A stretch of DNA of 64,000 bases from Propionibacterium sp. (GTDB taxonomy: Bacteria; Actinomycetota; Actinomycetes; Propionibacteriales; Propionibacteriaceae). Below are positions 4,396 to 15,812 of this stretch, piece after piece. A program made the position numbers and the translations under genes. The DNA lies in contig JAAYTZ010000073.1 of assembly GCA_012517965.1 (NCBI GenBank), positions 1-64,000 on the forward strand, read 5' to 3'. Positions within the stretch are counted from its first letter, which is position 1. The number at the start of each line of letters is the position of its first letter. The notes under the pieces were generated by a model. The model searched no databases. It was given only the letters and a program-made list of their open reading frames with translations, and was not told the DNA's origin.

Positions 4396-5609
4396 ACCGC
4401 TTCCTCGACCCCACCCCACGTCGGGCAACCGTCGAACCCGAGGGCCTCGCCAGCGAGGTCGGCACCACCCGGATGCTCGAGGCGGGTCTGGCCGCCCTCC
4501 TGGTCGTCGACGGCGTCCCGATCCCGGGCCTGGGCTTCCCGTTCTCGCTGCTGGGGGTTGCCGGTCTCAGCCTGCTGGGCTTCACCCGGCGGCCCGTCCT
4601 GCAGTTCGGCCGGACCAACTGGGTGCTGTGGGCCTTCGGCCTGCTGCTCGTCTACATCAGCGTCGTGTCGTACGTGACCCCGGACAGCTACTACGCCGCC
4701 GACTGGACCCGCCGCATCATCCGGATCGCCGCCGTGCTGGCCCTCGTCCTCATGCTGGCCGAGGGTCGGCTGCACCTGCCGTCGATCCTCAAGGGCCTCA
4801 TGCTGGCGCTCTTCGTCAACGCCGCGGCCTTCTACGCCGGCATCACCCCGGACGCCTACGGCGGGGCGCTGACCGGTTGGCTCGGCGACAAGAACAAGGC
4901 CGGCCTCACCTACGCCGCCGTGGGGGTGCTCGTGCTCTCCCAGGCCCGCTCCCGCTGGGGCCAGGCCTTCCTTGTGCTCACCAGCCTCGGGTTCATCTGG
5001 TTATCGGGGTCGCGCACCTCCATCACGGCGTACGCGTTCGGCGTCCTGTGGCTCGCCCTGGTCGCCACGCGGCCCGCGTGGGTGCGCTGGCTCGCGGCGG
5101 GCGGGATCGTGCTGACCCTGCCCTGGATCGAGGAGAACTTCGCGCAGGCCGGGGACTTCGCCAACCGGTGGGGCTCCGACCTGTTGCGCGGCCGCATCGA
5201 CGCGGCCGTGGCCGACAAGGTGGCCATCACGCCGCCGCAGGGTCTGGGCTTGGGCGAAGCTTACGTGATGATCAACGGCCGGACGTGGTACTTCCACAAC
5301 TCCTTCGACACCCTGCACGTCGAGGGCGGCTGGCTGTGGCTGATCGGCATCGTGGCGATCACAGTGTGGTTCGGGCTTCGCCCCTTCAACGGCACTGACC
5401 GCGGCCTGCAGTCCCGCTACGCGCAGGCGGCGACCATCGTCGTGCTGATCTGCGCCTGGAAGCTGGGCGAGGTGATGCTCACCAACGTGTGGGGCCTCGC
5501 GCTGGGCATCGCCCTCAACCAGGTGCTGCGCGAAAAGTCCGACCTTCCCGCTGGCGCCGCCGGCGCCTATTTGCCCCGCTTGCCGGCGGCCTTGGACCGG
5601 CTCACGTAG
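4392..5609 (+). CDS. O-antigen ligase/polymerase-like (Wzy-type) polytopic membrane protein
   Basis: Multiple hydrophobic segments, 'LTGWLGDKNKAGLTYAAVGVLVL', 'SGSRTSITAYAFGVLWLAL', a long periplasmic loop and 'HNSFDTLHVEGGWLWLIGI', typical of Wzy/WaaL-like proteins. Confidence 0.75.
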   Translation: MNRFLDPTPRRATVEPEGLASEVGTTRMLEAGLAALLVVDGVPIPGLGFPFSLLGVAGLSLLGFTRRPVLQFGRTNWVLWAFGLLLVYISVVSYVTPDSYYAADWTRRIIRIAAVLALVLMLAEGRLHLPSILKGLMLALFVNAAAFYAGITPDAYGGALTGWLGDKNKAGLTYAAVGVLVLSQARSRWGQAFLVLTSLGFIWLSGSRTSITAYAFGVLWLALVATRPAWVRWLAAGGIVLTLPWIEENFAQAGDFANRWGSDLLRGRIDAAVADKVAITPPQGLGLGEAYVMINGRTWYFHNSFDTLHVEGGWLWLIGIVAITVWFGLRPFNGTDRGLQSRYAQAATIVVLICAWKLGEVMLTNVWGLALGIALNQVLREKSDLPAGAAGAYLPRLPAALDRLT

Positions 5610-7021
5610 CCGCCGCTGGCCGAGCGACGCGCCCGCTTCGACCCGTCCTCGGCGTAGTAGTAGTACGACTGCTTGTAGTTGCCGTAGCCGTAGCCGTAGA
5701 TGACCGACCCGAGGCCCCGCTCCGGCGCCATGTTCATCACCGACCCCAGCATCTTGCCCCCCACGCGGCCGAGCATGCGCACGGCCAGCGCCACCTGCTC
5801 CTTGTAGGTCTTGCCGACCTTCAGCACGAGGATCGCGCCGTCGCTGGCGGCGGTGAGCAGGCCGGCGTCCGTGACCGGCAGCAGCGGCGGGGCGTCGATG
5901 ATGACCGTGTGCTCCTGGGACAGCTCCTCGATCAGGCGGTGCATGCGCTGCGACCCCACCAACTCGCTGGGGTTCGGCGGAATCCGGCCCGCGAGCAACA
6001 ACTGCAGCCCGTCGGTGCCCGACTCCTCCAGCGCGGACGCCGCCGGCAGGTCGCCGGCCAGCACCTGGGTGAGGCCGACCAGCCCGTCGCGCTCGAACAG
6101 CTTCGCCTGGGCCGGACGCCGCAGGTCGGCGTCGACCAGGATCGTGGGCTGACCCGACTCCGCCAGCAGGCGGGCCAGGGCGGACGACACGGTCGACTTG
6201 CCCTCGCCCGGGTTCGCCGACGTGACGACGATGCTGCGGGGAGGCTGGTCGACGTTGACGAAGCGGAGGTTGGTGCGCAGTTGCCGGAGCGCCTCGGACG
6301 CGATGCCCAGGTCGCCGTCGCCGGCCTTGCCGGCCAGCGACGACGTGATCGGGATGACGCCGAGCACGCCGGCCCCGGTCAACGACTCGACCTCGTCGGA
6401 GTGGCGCACGCGGTTGTCGAGTGCGCGGCGCACGAACCCGATCGCGAGGCCGACGAGCAGACCACCGCCGAGCCCCGCCAACAAGTTGCGCCGCCAGTCT
6501 GGCGACACCGGGGTGGAGGGGGTGACAGCAGCTTCGATGAGCACCAACCCGATCTCGGAATTGCCCGAGGAGGTGCCGTCCAGGGCCATGGTGTCGAGTC
6601 GCGCAGCCTCGGCCGACGTGGCGCGGATCGCGGCGTCCGCCACCGCCCGGGCGCGCTCGGGTGAGGTGGACACCGCGGTGATCTTCAGCAGCAACGAGTC
6701 GGGGACCACCCACGCCGACAGGCTGGCGCCGATCGAACTGCTGCTCTCGCTCAGTTGCAGCTCTTTCGCGATGCGCTCGGCGACACCGCGGCTCTGCACG
6801 ATGGGAATGTAGGTGTTTGCCTTCTGCACCGCAGGGTCGGTGCCCGGGGCAGCACCGGACGCCGCAGCGGGCGTCGCCACCACGTAGCCGGTCGAGGTGG
6901 CCGCGTACAGGCGGGGCTGCGTCAGGGAATACCCGGCGGCCAGCAAGACGCCGATGAAGGTGGCCGCCACGAGCACCAGCACGTTGTGCTTGATGAGCCG
7001 CCACAGGTCTTGCAGAGTCAC
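5567..7021 (-). CDS. Polysaccharide biosynthesis tyrosine autokinase (Wzz domain plus CpsD/Wzc kinase)
   Basis: Wzz-like N-terminus, Walker A 'TSANPGEGKSTVSSALA', Walker A' 'ILVDADLRRP', 'VIIDAPPLLPVTDA', and C-terminal Tyr cluster 'YGYGYGNYKQSYYYYAEDGSK'. Confidence 0.92.
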   Translation of the reverse strand: MTLQDLWRLIKHNVLVLVAATFIGVLLAAGYSLTQPRLYAATSTGYVVATPAAASGAAPGTDPAVQKANTYIPIVQSRGVAERIAKELQLSESSSSIGASLSAWVVPDSLLLKITAVSTSPERARAVADAAIRATSAEAARLDTMALDGTSSGNSEIGLVLIEAAVTPSTPVSPDWRRNLLAGLGGGLLVGLAIGFVRRALDNRVRHSDEVESLTGAGVLGVIPITSSLAGKAGDGDLGIASEALRQLRTNLRFVNVDQPPRSIVVTSANPGEGKSTVSSALARLLAESGQPTILVDADLRRPAQAKLFERDGLVGLTQVLAGDLPAASALEESGTDGLQLLLAGRIPPNPSELVGSQRMHRLIEELSQEHTVIIDAPPLLPVTDAGLLTAASDGAILVLKVGKTYKEQVALAVRMLGRVGGKMLGSVMNMAPERGLGSVIYGYGYGNYKQSYYYYAEDGSKRARRSASGGYVSRSKAAGKRGK

Positions 7022-8178: not shown

Positions 8179-9102
8179 GTGATCGAAACGGGCCCGCCGA
8201 TGCCGGTGGCCGTGCGCGTGCACTTCGCGCACGCCGCCGTGCAGGCGATCGCGGACGCCGTCGGCGCCGACCTGCTGCACGTCAAGGGGCCCGCCATCGA
8301 CCCCAGCCTGCGTCCGCCGGTGGGGGGTGAGGCGGTCCCCCGTCGCGCGGCCGGTGGCGTCCCTGCCGAACCCCGGCTCAGCACCGACGCCGACGTGCTG
8401 GTCCGCCCCGGGCACGCCCCGCGCCTGCTGGCAGCCCTGAGGCGGCACGGCTGGGCGGTCAGGACCCGGTTCGAGACCGGCTCGGCGTTCGAGCACGCGG
8501 CGACCCTGTGGCACGAGCAGCTCGGCTACGTCGACGTGCACCGCTGGTTCCCGGGCATCGAACTGCCCCCCGACGAGGGGTTCGCGTGGCTGTGGCAGCA
8601 CCGTCAGCGGTCGACGATCGCCCATCGGGAGTGCCCCGTTCCGTCGGTCGACGCGCAGCGGCTGCTGCTGATCCTGCACGGGGCGCGGAGCGGCGGCCTG
8701 GACCATCCCGACGTCGTTCTGCTGTGGGCCTTGGCGGCCCCCGCCGAGCGCGAGCACCTGCGTGGATTGGCAGCCGATCTTCACGCCGAGGTGGCGCTGG
8801 CGGCCGCGACCGGCGATCTCGACGCCTACGCCGACCACCCCAGCCACGACCTGTGGCAGTCGTTCGCCGAGCCCAGTGATGCGGGCCGGCTCGGCGAGTG
8901 GCGGGCCCGGCTGAAGGCGGCACCCACCCTCGCCGCCCGCGTCCGGGTGCTCGCGAGAGCGCTGCTGGTGAACACCGACCACCTCGCGATGCGCCTGCAG
9001 CGGCGCCCGACCCGCGCCGAGGTTCTCGCGGAATACCTGCGCCGGTCCCGAGCCGGCGTCCACGCGCTGGCCGCCTGGGCGCGCCGCACGCTCAGGCGGT
9101 GA
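8179..9102 (+). CDS. Nucleotidyltransferase-family protein (NTP_transf_5-like)
   Basis: 'LLHVKGPAID...RLSTDADVLVRPGHAPRLLAALRRHGW', '...YVDVHRWFPGI'; the KG(x)n..D(A/L)D..V pattern is typical of the uncharacterised nucleotidyltransferase family. Confidence 0.75.
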   Translation: MIETGPPMPVAVRVHFAHAAVQAIADAVGADLLHVKGPAIDPSLRPPVGGEAVPRRAAGGVPAEPRLSTDADVLVRPGHAPRLLAALRRHGWAVRTRFETGSAFEHAATLWHEQLGYVDVHRWFPGIELPPDEGFAWLWQHRQRSTIAHRECPVPSVDAQRLLLILHGARSGGLDHPDVVLLWALAAPAEREHLRGLAADLHAEVALAAATGDLDAYADHPSHDLWQSFAEPSDAGRLGEWRARLKAAPTLAARVRVLARALLVNTDHLAMRLQRRPTRAEVLAEYLRRSRAGVHALAAWARRTLRR

Positions 9103-10144
9103 GTGCGCGCGGTTCGGCGGGCACGCCGGCCTCGGCGAACCGTTCGGCCAGCTCGTCGACGACCTCGGCCAGTTCCGACAACCCCAGGAACGGCCCGCCG
9201 GCCAGCAGCCCGTCGGTGCCGAGCAGCACCCCCATCGGCACGGCCGTTTGCCCGAGGACCGCCTGGACGTAGGCGCCCGGGTCTTCCAACCCGCTGGCCG
9301 CCAGGGCGGGGACCCGATCGGCCAACTGGGGCAGGTGACCCACCACCGGCCGGAACTCGAGATGGGGCACCCGCGCCGCCCACCCGGGCAGCTGTTCGAA
9401 CACGTCGGCGCACGCGGCGCACGTGAAGCTGAGCCAGATCAGAAACACGGCACGGTCGCGGGGGAGGTCGCGCAGGGACACCCGCTCGCCGGTCCCGTCG
9501 ACCAGCGTCACGTCGGGGATCGGACGCCGTTCGTACGGCTCGTCGGGGGTCGCGGGCGCCTGCGATGCCTGCGCGTCGGACGCGTTCCCAGCAGCGGGCG
9601 CGACGGCTGCCGGGGTTCGCCCGGCCGGCTCGTGGAGCACGAGGCCGACGACGGCGGCGGACACGACTGCGCCCACCAGCCACCACGCGGCCTCGGCGTC
9701 CAGGGCCCCGATCCGCGCGAGCACGACGTCGCGGATCATCGTGGCGTCGACGACGGCCAGCACCGCGACCAGCAGTAGCAGCGAGTTGCGGAGCAGCGTC
9801 CAACGGCTGACCCGGCCCGAGGCGGCCGCGCCGAAGCAGTTGCAGGAGACCTCGCCGCCTGCGGCGACGGCGCGGGCGATGAGGATCCAGTAGGCCGCGA
9901 ACAGCCCGACCGTCGCCAGCGTCACCCCCAGCAGCACCCAGCCCTGGGTGAGCAACAGTCCGACCGCGAGCGCGAGCTCGGCGTAGGGAACGGCCGCGAC
10001 GATCCAGGGCTGCGCGAGGGCGGGGGGCACGCGCAACGCGTCGAACGCGGCGCGTCCGGAACCGGGGTCGCGCAGCTTGGCGACACCGCTGGCCACCAGC
10101 ACAGCGGCCAGCAGCATGGGCGTCAGGATGAGGGCTTCGGGCAC
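9092..10144 (-). CDS. MauE/DoxX-type redox membrane protein fused to a C-terminal thioredoxin-like (MauD-like) domain
   Basis: 'LAAVLVASGVAKLRDPGSGRAAFDALRVP...PYAELALAVGLLL...CNCFG' (MauE signature) followed by 'VTLVDGTGERVSLRDLPRDRAVFLIWLSFTCAACADVFEQLPGWA' (CxxC thioredoxin fold). Confidence 0.85.
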   Translation of the reverse strand: MPEALILTPMLLAAVLVASGVAKLRDPGSGRAAFDALRVPPALAQPWIVAAVPYAELALAVGLLLTQGWVLLGVTLATVGLFAAYWILIARAVAAGGEVSCNCFGAAASGRVSRWTLLRNSLLLLVAVLAVVDATMIRDVVLARIGALDAEAAWWLVGAVVSAAVVGLVLHEPAGRTPAAVAPAAGNASDAQASQAPATPDEPYERRPIPDVTLVDGTGERVSLRDLPRDRAVFLIWLSFTCAACADVFEQLPGWAARVPHLEFRPVVGHLPQLADRVPALAASGLEDPGAYVQAVLGQTAVPMGVLLGTDGLLAGGPFLGLSELAEVVDELAERFAEAGVPAEPRALTA

Positions 10145-10159
10145 GATCGCTTTCCCACT

Positions 10160-10438
10160 TCAGTCAAGGATGATGTCGAGCAGGCCGAACCGGCCCATCT
10201 GGGCGAGGAACGCCAGCACGCCCGGCTCGGCCGTCCGTTGCTCAACGCCGTAGGCGTCGGCGATGTTCCTGATCACGCGGCCGACCACGGCGGGCGCGGC
10301 GATCTCGGCCCAGACGGCTGCGCCGACGCCGTCGATGCCGTAGACGGAGCCGGCGGCGTCCATCAGGGCGGACTCTCCGCCGAGATCCTCCCGGCGCACG
10401 TCGGCGCGGGCCTGCACGATCGAGCGGCGGCTGATCAC
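10160..10438 (-). CDS. PqqD-family peptide chaperone / RiPP recognition element-like protein
   Basis: 92 aa; 'VRREDLGGESALMDAAGSVYGIDGVGAAVWAEIA...FLAQMGRFGLLDI' matches the PqqD pattern (..LD...G..Y.LN..G..IW..). Confidence 0.8.
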   Translation of the reverse strand: MISRRSIVQARADVRREDLGGESALMDAAGSVYGIDGVGAAVWAEIAAPAVVGRVIRNIADAYGVEQRTAEPGVLAFLAQMGRFGLLDIILD

Positions 10439-11310
10439 GGCTTAGCCCCACGGACGTCGACCTCGACCGTCCGGGCGACCTCACGCAGCCGTGTCGCGTC
10501 GGCCGGGCGGCGTAGCCGGAACAGCGGGGTGGTGCGGGCCAGCGCCGTGATCCGTTCGAAGTAGGCGTCGCGGCCACCGATCTCGTCGCCGATCTCGCGG
10601 TGGTAGGTGGCGCTGACCAGCGTGCTGAGCCGCAGCGACGGGTTCACGGGCGTGATGCTGAGGGTCGCATCCTTGCCGGGGAGGACCTGGTAGATCCGGG
10701 CCAGAGGCAGCGGCTGCGTCGCGGGCTGCGCGGCGTCGACGAAGTACTTCTGGCGCCCGGCGGGGTCGGTCGCCCGGGTGTCGATGCGGCGCAGGGCGCC
10801 GGGGTCAAGCCCGAGGGTCGGCAGCACGTCGCTCCACACGCGCACGAAGGGTGTTCCGGGCTGGACGGTCGGGACGCCCTCGGGGTCGAACGCCACGGCG
10901 CACACGTCGTCGGTGACGAGCGGGTGGCCGAGCCCCACCAGCGCGACCGCCAGCGACGACTTGCCGCAGCCCGGGGGCCCGACGAACAGCACCGCCTGCC
11001 CGTCGATCGCGACCGCGGCCCCGTGCAGCACCAGCAGGCCACGCTGCCACGCCAGCGCCACCGTCACCGAGCCCAGCAACAGGCCGTCGACCTCGTCGGG
11101 GGTGGCGTGCGGGTCGGAATCAACGATGACCCGTTCGCCGTCACGCACCCTGAACCGGCCGAGACCCTCCACGGCGAACAGCACCTCTCCGGGGGCAACC
11201 TGACACGATGAGGACCCGGTGCGGGGTCCTTGCAGTCGCTCGGGTACTCCTCCTGCGGCAATCTCGACAGCGTCGAATCCGGGAAGCCCCAGTCTGAGCG
11301 ACAACTCCAC
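10435..11310 (-). CDS. HPr kinase/phosphorylase-related (HprK-like) P-loop protein
   Basis: 'LLVLHGAAVAIDGQAVLFVGPPGCGKSSLAVALVGLGHPLVTDDVCAVAFD' (Walker A plus HprK-type VTDD). Start set at GTG 11310, just after the upstream stop; overlaps PqqD by 4 nt. Confidence 0.82.
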   Translation of the reverse strand: MELSLRLGLPGFDAVEIAAGGVPERLQGPRTGSSSCQVAPGEVLFAVEGLGRFRVRDGERVIVDSDPHATPDEVDGLLLGSVTVALAWQRGLLVLHGAAVAIDGQAVLFVGPPGCGKSSLAVALVGLGHPLVTDDVCAVAFDPEGVPTVQPGTPFVRVWSDVLPTLGLDPGALRRIDTRATDPAGRQKYFVDAAQPATQPLPLARIYQVLPGKDATLSITPVNPSLRLSTLVSATYHREIGDEIGGRDAYFERITALARTTPLFRLRRPADATRLREVARTVEVDVRGAKP

Positions 11311-11315
11311 CTCAA

Positions 11316-11963
11316 TCAGGGATAGTTGGCCAGGAGCCCGTCGCAACTCGAGTTCGAGTTGCCACACGTTGTCGGGTAGGGGAACGACCTGGTCACTGTC
11401 CACGTTTGCGTGACGTTGTTGACTTTGTAGGTGAATGTAACCGTGATGGAGTACGGACCTTGCATGGCGAAGATGGCACACGGCCCGTGACAGGTGCACC
11501 CCGGCGAACAAGTACAGGTGTCAGTCGAGGCATTGCAGGTAGCGGTCTTGCAGTAGCCAGCAATCGCCCCCGTGGTGCAGGGCCCGGCGCCCCAGCGCCC
11601 TCTGCTCTGGTCTGAAGTCTTGCCGTCCCAAAGCATCTTGCTTGATTGAACTGTTATCGTGGCGCCTGGCTTGACCGTCTTGTTCGGGTCGAACGTGAAC
11701 GTCCAGCCGAACGGCGCGGTGATCTTCACTTCTGCGACAGTAGGTTCGATCGCAGTGAAGTTCTGGATCGAGACGCTGAACTCCCACTTGCCGTTGGCGC
11801 CGCTGTAGAGCGCTTCGGTGAAGACCAACTTGTAGTCGGGCGAGGCGGCCATGGCCGGCGCGGCGGCGGTCAGCCAGACGGCCGGGGCGCTCCAGGCGAC
11901 ACCTGCCGCGAGCGCGCGTCGCGAGACCGGCCGCTGGGGCGACGCCGTGTCGGTCTCAGTCAT
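11316..11963 (-). CDS. Exported Cys-rich protein with Tat-like signal and Ig-like beta-rich body
   Basis: N-terminus 'VSRRALAAGVAWSAPAVWLTAAAPAMAAS' (twin-Arg, hydrophobic stretch, AxA). 'GPCTTGAIAGYCKTATCNASTDTCTCSPGCTCHGPC' has 8 Cys, plus 2 in the C-terminal 'TTCGNSNSSCDG'. Beta-rich segments flank the Cys loop. Confidence 0.8.
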   Translation of the reverse strand: MTETDTASPQRPVSRRALAAGVAWSAPAVWLTAAAPAMAASPDYKLVFTEALYSGANGKWEFSVSIQNFTAIEPTVAEVKITAPFGWTFTFDPNKTVKPGATITVQSSKMLWDGKTSDQSRGRWGAGPCTTGAIAGYCKTATCNASTDTCTCSPGCTCHGPCAIFAMQGPYSITVTFTYKVNNVTQTWTVTRSFPYPTTCGNSNSSCDGLLANYP

Positions 11964-14228: not shown

Positions 14229-14336
14229 GGCGGGCGGGACGTCCCCCCCGGGTGGCCACGGTTGCCACCGACTGGACGCGGCGCCCACCCTGAGAGTACC
14301 GTGAGCGCGCTCAGCGGTTTCTTGGGGGGAAGTTCA

Positions 14337-15812
14337 ATGTCGCTCACCGCTACGGGGGTGCGCTCAGGCCAGGTCGACGACCCGGGCGCTGAGGCCCGAT
14401 CCCGTCGTTCCGCCCCGCCGCCCCAGTCACTGCTCCTCGTCCTGGCGGACGCCGCGGCCATCGCGCTCGCCGCCTACCTCGCGCTCAGCCTGCGCGTCGC
14501 GCTCACCGTGTTCGCCGAGGCGGCCGACGTGGTCGCCCTGGTCGCCCCCCTCGGCGGGGCGCTCGTCGTCGCCTGGCTGGTCACGATCGCGCTCTTCGGT
14601 GGCTACTCGCCCAGGCAGGTCGGCACCGGCATGACCGAGTACCGGCGCGTGATGCGCGCCTCGTTCGCGCTGGCCGCGCTGGTGGGGATCGTCGCGTACC
14701 TGACGCAGTACCCGCTCTCGCGTGGGTTCTTCTTCCTGTTCTTCGGCCTGGGGATCCCCCTGCTCAGCCTCGAGCGCTTCCTGGTCAGGCGGCTGATCCA
14801 CCGCGCCCGGGTACGCGGGACCCTGCAGACCACCGTGCTCATCGCCGGCGACCTCGACCACATCGAGGACGTCGCCACCGTGCTGCGCCGCGAGCGCTGG
14901 CTGGGCTACTCGATCGTCGGTGCCCTCGCCGCCGACTCGGCCGACGGCGAGACCCCCAGCGGGATCCCGGTCCTCGGCACCCCCGACGACGCCTCGGACG
15001 CCGTCCTCGCGACCGGCGCCGAGGGCGTGATCTTCGCGGAGGGGTCCTTCCGGCGGGGACGCGACTTCAACCTGCTCGCCCGCACCCTCGAGGGCACCCA
15101 CGCCCAACTGATCGTCGTCCCGGCCCTGACCGACATCTCGGCCCAGCGCATGGACGTGCGCCCGGTCGCCGGCATCCCGCTCGTGCACATCGACCGGCCC
15201 CGCGCCCATGCCGCAGCCCACTGGCGCAAACGCGTCTTCGACATCGTCGGCTCGGCCCTGCTGCTCGTCGTCGGATCGCCCATCTTGCTGGCCGTCGCCC
15301 TCGCCATCAAGATCAATGACGGCGGCCCCATCCTGTTCGCCCAGCAACGCGCCGGAATCAAGGGCGAACCCTTCCGGTTCTTCAAGTTCCGCTCCATGGT
15401 CGTGGACGCCGAAGACCGCCTCGCCGAACTCGCCGCCCAGAACGAGAGCGACGGCGTCCTGTTCAAGATGAGCGACGACCCGCGCATCACCCTGGTCGGC
15501 CGGTTCATCCGCCGCTATTCGCTCGACGAACTGCCCCAACTCGTCAACGTGCTCCGCGGCGACATGAGCCTCATCGGCCCCCGGCCCGCCCTCCTCCACG
15601 AGGTCAGCCGCTACGAAACCCACGTGCTGCGCCGCCTCGACGTCCGCCCCGGGATGACCGGGCTGTGGCAGGTCTCCGGACGCTCCGACCTGTCCTGGGA
15701 AGAAACCGTGCGCCTCGACCTGTACTACGTCGACAACTGGTCGATGTTCCAGGACCTCGCCATCCTGGGCCGCACCTTCAACGCGGTGGTCGGCAAGCAC
15801 GGTGCCTACTGA
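14337..15812 (+). CDS. Polyprenyl-phosphate priming sugar transferase (WbaP/ExoY family)
   Basis: N-terminal membrane domain plus 'KRVFDIVGSALLLVVGSPILLAVALAIKINDGGPILFAQQRAGIKGEPFRFFKFRSMVVDAE...RRYSLDELPQLVNVLRGDMSLIGPRPALLHE'. RBS 'ggggggaagttca'. Confidence 0.95.
   Translation: MSLTATGVRSGQVDDPGAEARSRRSAPPPQSLLLVLADAAAIALAAYLALSLRVALTVFAEAADVVALVAPLGGALVVAWLVTIALFGGYSPRQVGTGMTEYRRVMRASFALAALVGIVAYLTQYPLSRGFFFLFFGLGIPLLSLERFLVRRLIHRARVRGTLQTTVLIAGDLDHIEDVATVLRRERWLGYSIVGALAADSADGETPSGIPVLGTPDDASDAVLATGAEGVIFAEGSFRRGRDFNLLARTLEGTHAQLIVVPALTDISAQRMDVRPVAGIPLVHIDRPRAHAAAHWRKRVFDIVGSALLLVVGSPILLAVALAIKINDGGPILFAQQRAGIKGEPFRFFKFRSMVVDAEDRLAELAAQNESDGVLFKMSDDPRITLVGRFIRRYSLDELPQLVNVLRGDMSLIGPRPALLHEVSRYETHVLRRLDVRPGMTGLWQVSGRSDLSWEETVRLDLYYVDNWSMFQDLAILGRTFNAVVGKHGAY

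Follow-up and report, generated by a model that had tools for sequence, protein, structure and literature searches.

Why does a polysaccharide locus carry, in one tight operon, genes for a cysteine-rich exported protein, an HprK-like kinase, a PqqD-like protein and a MauE-thioredoxin fusion (MauE-Trx), together with a converging gene for an NTP_transf_5-like nucleotidyltransferase? The arrangement lies in a 64,000-nt stretch of contig JAAYTZ010000073.1 of Propionibacterium sp.; this whole stretch is referred to as the window, and coordinates are counted from its first letter. A first-pass annotation had proposed that the five genes constitute one maturation system with the cysteine (Cys)-rich protein as its client. 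Comparison with other genomes revealed that the partners recur in many other Actinomycetota, which indicates that the grouping is real though its chemistry is inferred, and we consider it about an even chance (roughly 0.5) that the genes represent a surface-protein maturation set attached to the polysaccharide locus.

The strongest link is that between MauE-Trx and neighboring Cys-bearing exported proteins. These share a leader with the pattern RR..., W, P and AxA, and are called leader proteins hereafter. Per 100 kb, two collections of MauE-Trx loci contained 4.5 and 3.9 of them and the HprK polysaccharide loci 2.5, whereas the genome-wide figure was 0.05–0.10 and none occurred in 20 HprK loci of the lasso type. 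The enrichment over their own genomes was about 40–50-fold beside MauE-Trx and about 50-fold beside polysaccharide-type HprK; part of the training set of the leader profile came from these locus sets, but many genera among the 79 named loci were not represented in it. Among the sampled f3 genomes, leader proteins were found in all 11 with MauE-Trx and in 1 of the 11 without; that one (G047; loci L142 and L293-L299) carries 14, of which 13 have 0–1 Cys. After pooling this sample with five more genomes of the family that lack MauE-Trx, two or more Cys were present in 36/46 leader proteins of MauE-Trx genomes versus 4/24 in genomes without it (P=1.6e-6, which is a guide only because the sequences are related and relatedness inflates p-values). 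At least two Cys were counted in 40/46 leader proteins of the named MauE-Trx loci, with an odd number in only 2. An alignment of 18 Nocardioides and Phycicoccus clients, in which the mean column identity is 33%, showed two Cys conserved without exception, one immediately following the cleavage site and one C-terminal.

The MauE-Trx loci of Nocardioides deserve a separate remark. MauE-Trx with clients occurs there without HprK, and the loci (L366:6152-6934, L366:7079-7789, L329, L331, L365, L368 and L378) often hold leader-bearing β-rich proteins in tandem. This family, with one invariant Cys following signal cleavage and one C-terminal, had no Pfam or NCBIfam match of weight and is undescribed. 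One client model (predicted local distance difference test, pLDDT, of 82) is rich in β strands and was read as a probable β-sandwich, for which the best fold-search match, CBM27, is weak (E=2e-3).

The window MauE-Trx itself scored 80.5 bits against Pfam MauE (PF07291; cut-off 27). Its thioredoxin half gave a weak score only (AhpC-TSA, E=0.016) but kept the CxxC (242/245) and cis-Pro303, and the MauE part contains a CxC (101/103); C101, C103, C242, C245 and P303 are invariant across 12 homologues. Because these active-site Cys and the cis-Pro are invariant and the client Cys numbers are even, disulfide formation is the best-supported function of MauE-Trx, and known MauE has been linked to disulfide formation (PMC7794033).

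The second link is that between polysaccharide loci and HprK with PqqD, to which NTP_transf_5 may be added: these genes recur as accessories there, frequently next to leader proteins that lack Cys. A clean nine-sequence HprK profile (A1) matched in 44/199 genomes of the family and was also used for the counts in named loci; an early iterated profile had drifted into ABC transporters. In 49 HprK polysaccharide loci, PqqD is almost always adjacent or fused to HprK, accompanied by NTP_transf_5 in about 24–28 loci, Wzz in 24, a phosphoglycosyltransferase (Bac_transf) in 19, a low-molecular-weight phosphatase in 18 and MauE-Trx in 6, and leader proteins were found in 13 of them against 0.4 expected. 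Natural HprK-PqqD fusions (L120:1610-2932 and L323:14942-15988) are evidence that both proteins work jointly, which bears out the earlier view of them as a true pair. As for PqqD, a tandem pair of PqqD-like genes was seen 3′ of HprK in L139:8944-9739, and such loci commonly have a further PqqD next to NTP_transf_5 or the phosphatase.

The window trio keeps the expected motifs at variable scores. The kinase is borderline for Pfam Hpr_kinase_C (33.8 bits versus a cut-off of 33.3, profile positions 9–53 of 171 covered) and lies below the cut-off of the HPr kinase/phosphorylase equivalog TIGR00679 (34.8 versus 240 bits); it retains the Walker A GPPGCGKSS, His94 and Asp132, and G114, K115, H94 and D132 are invariant in alignment A1. 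Within the polysaccharide-locus set it is divergent (22–27% identity); its identity to the kinases of lasso-like loci is higher (up to 37%), and it may thus have been recruited separately. PqqD (PF05402) was matched at 35.8 bits versus 23.4, over positions 4–67 of 67, and lasso_PqqD_Bac at 39 bits, below its cut-off of 80. The nucleotidyltransferase reached 35.9 bits versus 31.2 for PF14907, with the DxD motif also present in the relatives compared. As a side observation on this trio, 12 Nocardioidaceae-type loci (L099-L110; e.g. L103:8507-10256 and L105:8027-9981) combine HprK, PqqD and NTP_transf_5 with a protease of the lasso B2 type; most of them also yielded a short precursor with a terminal GS, such as MKLAYVAPVLETLSVTATQGIDIDIDITLGLGS, and in the loci read a lasso cyclase was not seen, so that a cyclase-less phosphorylated RiPP (ribosomally synthesized and post-translationally modified peptide) class is possible.

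The window is a meeting place of both links, and it is not alone in this. A polysaccharide-type HprK lies within 8 kb of MauE-Trx in 20/79 named loci, approximately 60 times the expectation of about 0.3, and the pairing spans at least five actinobacterial families, with representatives in Nocardioides, Marmoricola, Terrabacter, Humibacillus, Ornithinimicrobium, Kocuria, Microbacterium, Brachybacterium and Dermabacter. In the window and in genomes G020 and G229, a leader gene immediately precedes HprK in the same orientation. In Terrabacter sp. Root181 and Humibacillus xanthopallidus the order is HprK, PqqD and an 8-Cys leader protein with MauE-Trx convergent; in the Propionibacteriaceae genome G276 it is PqqD, a 6-Cys leader protein, an HprK-PqqD fusion, MauE-Trx and a phosphatase; and a Propionibacteriaceae metagenome-assembled genome shows a phosphatase, PqqD, NTP_transf_5, MauE-Trx and a 6-Cys leader protein. 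Cys-bearing exported protein, HprK, PqqD and MauE-Trx thus stand together in Terrabacter, Humibacillus and G276. These findings exclude that HprK/PqqD are never near a Cys-rich exported protein or MauE-Trx elsewhere, an outcome that the first-pass annotation had named as fatal to its one-system idea. The recurrence of partners in that idea was confirmed, while its single obligate pathway was not, each module also occurring alone: MauE-Trx with clients but without HprK/PqqD/NTP_transf_5, and the latter without clients, point to two linked modules. What is conserved is a class of leader-bearing exported β-proteins, which lack Cys in many HprK loci and carry them mainly where MauE-Trx is also encoded.

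The window protein belongs to this class by its leader, SRRALAAGVAWSAPAVWLTAAAPAMAAS, which is of the usual kind, matches the profile built from 15 leader sequences and bears putative twin-arginine translocation (Tat) features, namely the twin arginine, an SRRxL-type motif, a short hydrophobic stretch and an AxA site; R2 and R3 are invariant in the leader alignment. All 10 Cys are C-terminal of the leader, eight of them within a loop at residues 129–162 and two near the C terminus. No Pfam or NCBIfam match above cut-off was obtained for the protein, and no convincing relative of its body was found in 199 family genomes. Profiles of 5 and of 9 sequences spoke against membership of the body in the 'CKxPGxS' client family of sister loci, and it was rejected (−2.8 bits, rank 274/501 versus shuffles); the sole part resembling the leader protein beside HprK in G229 is a 31-residue C-terminal hairpin (z=5.7 by shuffling). 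A Protein Data Bank match to CD276 (E=7e-6) was judged a generic immunoglobulin-like stretch and no homology, and the fold search was set aside because the single-sequence AF2 model was too poor (pLDDT 49). The protein is therefore best regarded as specific to this locus, belonging to a class defined by function and not by sequence; of its proposed role as MauE-Trx client, the link of MauE-Trx to Cys-bearing exported proteins stood, but the protein itself is not conserved.

If the genes form a surface-protein maturation set, the Cys-rich protein would be made with its Tat-like leader and then exported, and MauE-Trx in the membrane would form or correct its disulfides, with electrons passing between the Trx CxxC and the MauE CxC, a step suggested by family knowledge and co-occurrence. 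In the cytoplasm, HprK and PqqD would act together, PqqD holding the substrate while HprK phosphorylates its serine or threonine, and NTP_transf_5 may then attach a nucleotidyl or a sugar-phosphate moiety, on the model of phosphoglycosylated lasso peptides. The trio's most likely substrate in the window would be the exported protein, yielding a decorated surface protein that accompanies the polymer; the phosphorylation or the nucleotidyl/sugar transfer proposed for it is carried over by analogy from the lasso-peptide enzymes. The complete scheme would be an undescribed Actinomycetota system: HprK-PqqD-NTP_transf_5 would mark a folded surface protein, exported by Tat, while still in the cytoplasm with a (glyco)phosphate group tying it to the polysaccharide, and a dedicated MauE-Trx would afterwards lock it by disulfides. 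This reading is unlikely.

Several observations weigh against this reading. The body of the window protein is an orphan with no detectable relation to the sister-locus clients. The CxC and Trx of MauE-Trx lie on one side, which by charge could be cytoplasmic, and in that case another role would be favored. Inside HprK loci, the correlation between Cys and MauE-Trx across all loci was modest (Mann-Whitney U P=0.005, Fisher P=0.03, uncorrected for relatedness), and the former value, from all qualifying loci, supersedes P=1.6e-4 obtained with six chosen loci. Many HprK-PqqD loci have no leader protein, many of the leader proteins that do occur there are Cys-free, and the exported proteins showed no conserved phosphorylation site.

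A less likely but substantial rival is that two independent modules share one address: MauE-Trx would oxidize the exported protein, and HprK-PqqD-NTP_transf_5 would modify another target of polysaccharide assembly, such as a peptide, a Wzz- or phosphatase-type regulator or a carrier, and never the exported protein. The Nocardioides loci fit this, as do the most part of the 49 loci, in which the trio stands with Wzz, phosphatase and phosphoglycosyltransferase and no leader protein, but the approximately 60-fold pairing, the direct coupling of leader genes to HprK in several lineages and the absence of leader proteins from lasso-type HprK loci argue against it. Improbable is a role of MauE-Trx as a DsbD/CcdA-like reductase or thiol-repair system that keeps the exported Cys reduced, for example for metal binding: the dense Cys loop could bind metal and the charge distribution leaves the side of the Trx domain undecided, but clients with even Cys numbers and Cys at each chain end look like disulfide proteins, and known MauE has been linked to disulfide formation (PMC7794033). 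Very improbable is that the Cys-rich gene encodes a RiPP-like precursor of the decRiPPter kind, to be recognized by PqqD, cut and released; MauE-containing Streptomyces clusters offer a precedent, with three candidate RiPP families in which MauE homologues accompany precursors that have 8 or more Cys (PMC7794033), and PqqD and HprK are lasso-peptide enzymes (PMC8498205), but the window protein is a 215-aa protein with an export leader and the Nocardioides clients are predicted β-sandwich proteins. A lasso-peptide reading was rejected for the window, since the genome has no B2 protease (NF033537, a family that a control search detected elsewhere) and no YxxP-type precursor open reading frame lies within 3 kb.

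The window resembles known systems in part. In MauE/MauD of methylamine dehydrogenase maturation, a membrane-embedded MauE carrying a CxC and its partner of thioredoxin type are likewise linked to disulfides in an exported protein; unlike there, the window MauE and Trx are fused in one chain and the clients are leader-bearing β-proteins. The methylamine dehydrogenase light chain (PF02975) had 0 matches in this genome, a weak negative given that the control genomes gave none either. HprK-related kinase A (TIGR04352) and its PqqD partner are set in exopolysaccharide loci, and the window similarly places an HprK-like kinase with PqqD in a polysaccharide locus, though at 36.2 bits, far below the cut-off of 200, its kinase is no member by the NCBI definition. 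Lasso-peptide tailoring employs the same three protein kinds (PadeK-type HPr kinase, PqqD-like B1 and the pseudomycoidin nucleotidyltransferase), the HPr-kinase homologue phosphorylating a C-terminal Ser and the nucleotidyltransferase adding hexoses to the phosphate (PMC8498205); unlike those clusters, the window has no B2 protease, cyclase or precursor, and its protein has no terminal Ser. As in the window, the decRiPPter MauE/MauD candidate families of Streptomyces place a MauE homologue close to a gene whose product has 8 or more Cys; they are proposed as peptides, however, and the passages of PMC7794033 covered here mention neither HprK, PqqD or a nucleotidyltransferase nor a fusion of MauE with Trx, the leader class or a polysaccharide setting. 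Cys-rich candidate precursors beside MauE had thus already been noted in Streptomyces, which narrows the earlier claim of no described system to the fuller combination; neither HprK with PqqD and nucleotidyltransferase nor HPr kinase with PqqD and exopolysaccharide was found described in the open-access literature, subscription papers lying outside that search.

The features of the window are listed in the table. Transcription on the minus strand runs from the Cys-rich gene through HprK and PqqD to MauE-Trx, with a gap of 5 bp before HprK if the latter starts at GTG 11310, an overlap of 4 nt between HprK and PqqD, a gap of 15 bp before MauE-Trx and an 11-nt overlap of the latter with the converging NTP_transf_5-like gene. 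Coordinates and translations agree with the first-pass annotation in genes, strands, gaps and overlaps; its four family assignments each exceed the Pfam cut-off, HprK-C barely, and its polysaccharide setting is evident from the NeuB, Wzz/ParA-type, glycosyltransferase, acyltransferase and Bac_transf genes around.

Features of the window and the basis of their assignment
Feature	Coordinates	Strand	Basis and remarks
Cys-rich exported protein	11316..11963	-	215 aa; twin-arginine-type leader, single beta-rich domain, translation
HprK-like kinase	10435..11310	-	Start GTG 11310 or TTG 11304; Pfam Hpr_kinase_C
PqqD-like predicted peptide-binding protein	10160..10438	-	92 aa; Pfam PqqD
MauE-Trx fusion	9092..10144	-	350 aa, ~5 transmembrane segments; Pfam MauE; transmembrane layout
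NTP_transf_5-like nucleotidyltransferase	8179..9102	+	Pfam NTP_transf_5; DxD motif STDADVLV
Wzz / BY-kinase-like polysaccharide chain-length protein (context)	5567..7021	-	Neighborhood annotation
Bac_transf phosphoglycosyltransferase (context)	14262..15812	+	Neighborhood annotation

Elsewhere in the same genome, contig C58 (L076:9662-10699; L077:6343-14392) holds a second polysaccharide locus with its own MauE-Trx (46% identity to that of the window), HprK-PqqD and NTP_transf_5, and contig C11 a second leader protein of 6 Cys, with no MauE-Trx within the stretch examined. A scan of the genome contigs with the kinase alone as query gave no match; PADLOC returned no match of weight, and a defense-system reading was dropped.

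Taken as a surface-protein maturation set, the locus gives two orphan enzyme sets from Gram-positive polysaccharide loci a concrete substrate class that can be tested. The MauE-thioredoxin fusions, which are widespread in Actinomycetota, gain a likely client in leader proteins whose mature chain has a Cys at either end, and the recurrent trio suggests that lasso-peptide tailoring enzymes may act on whole surface proteins too.

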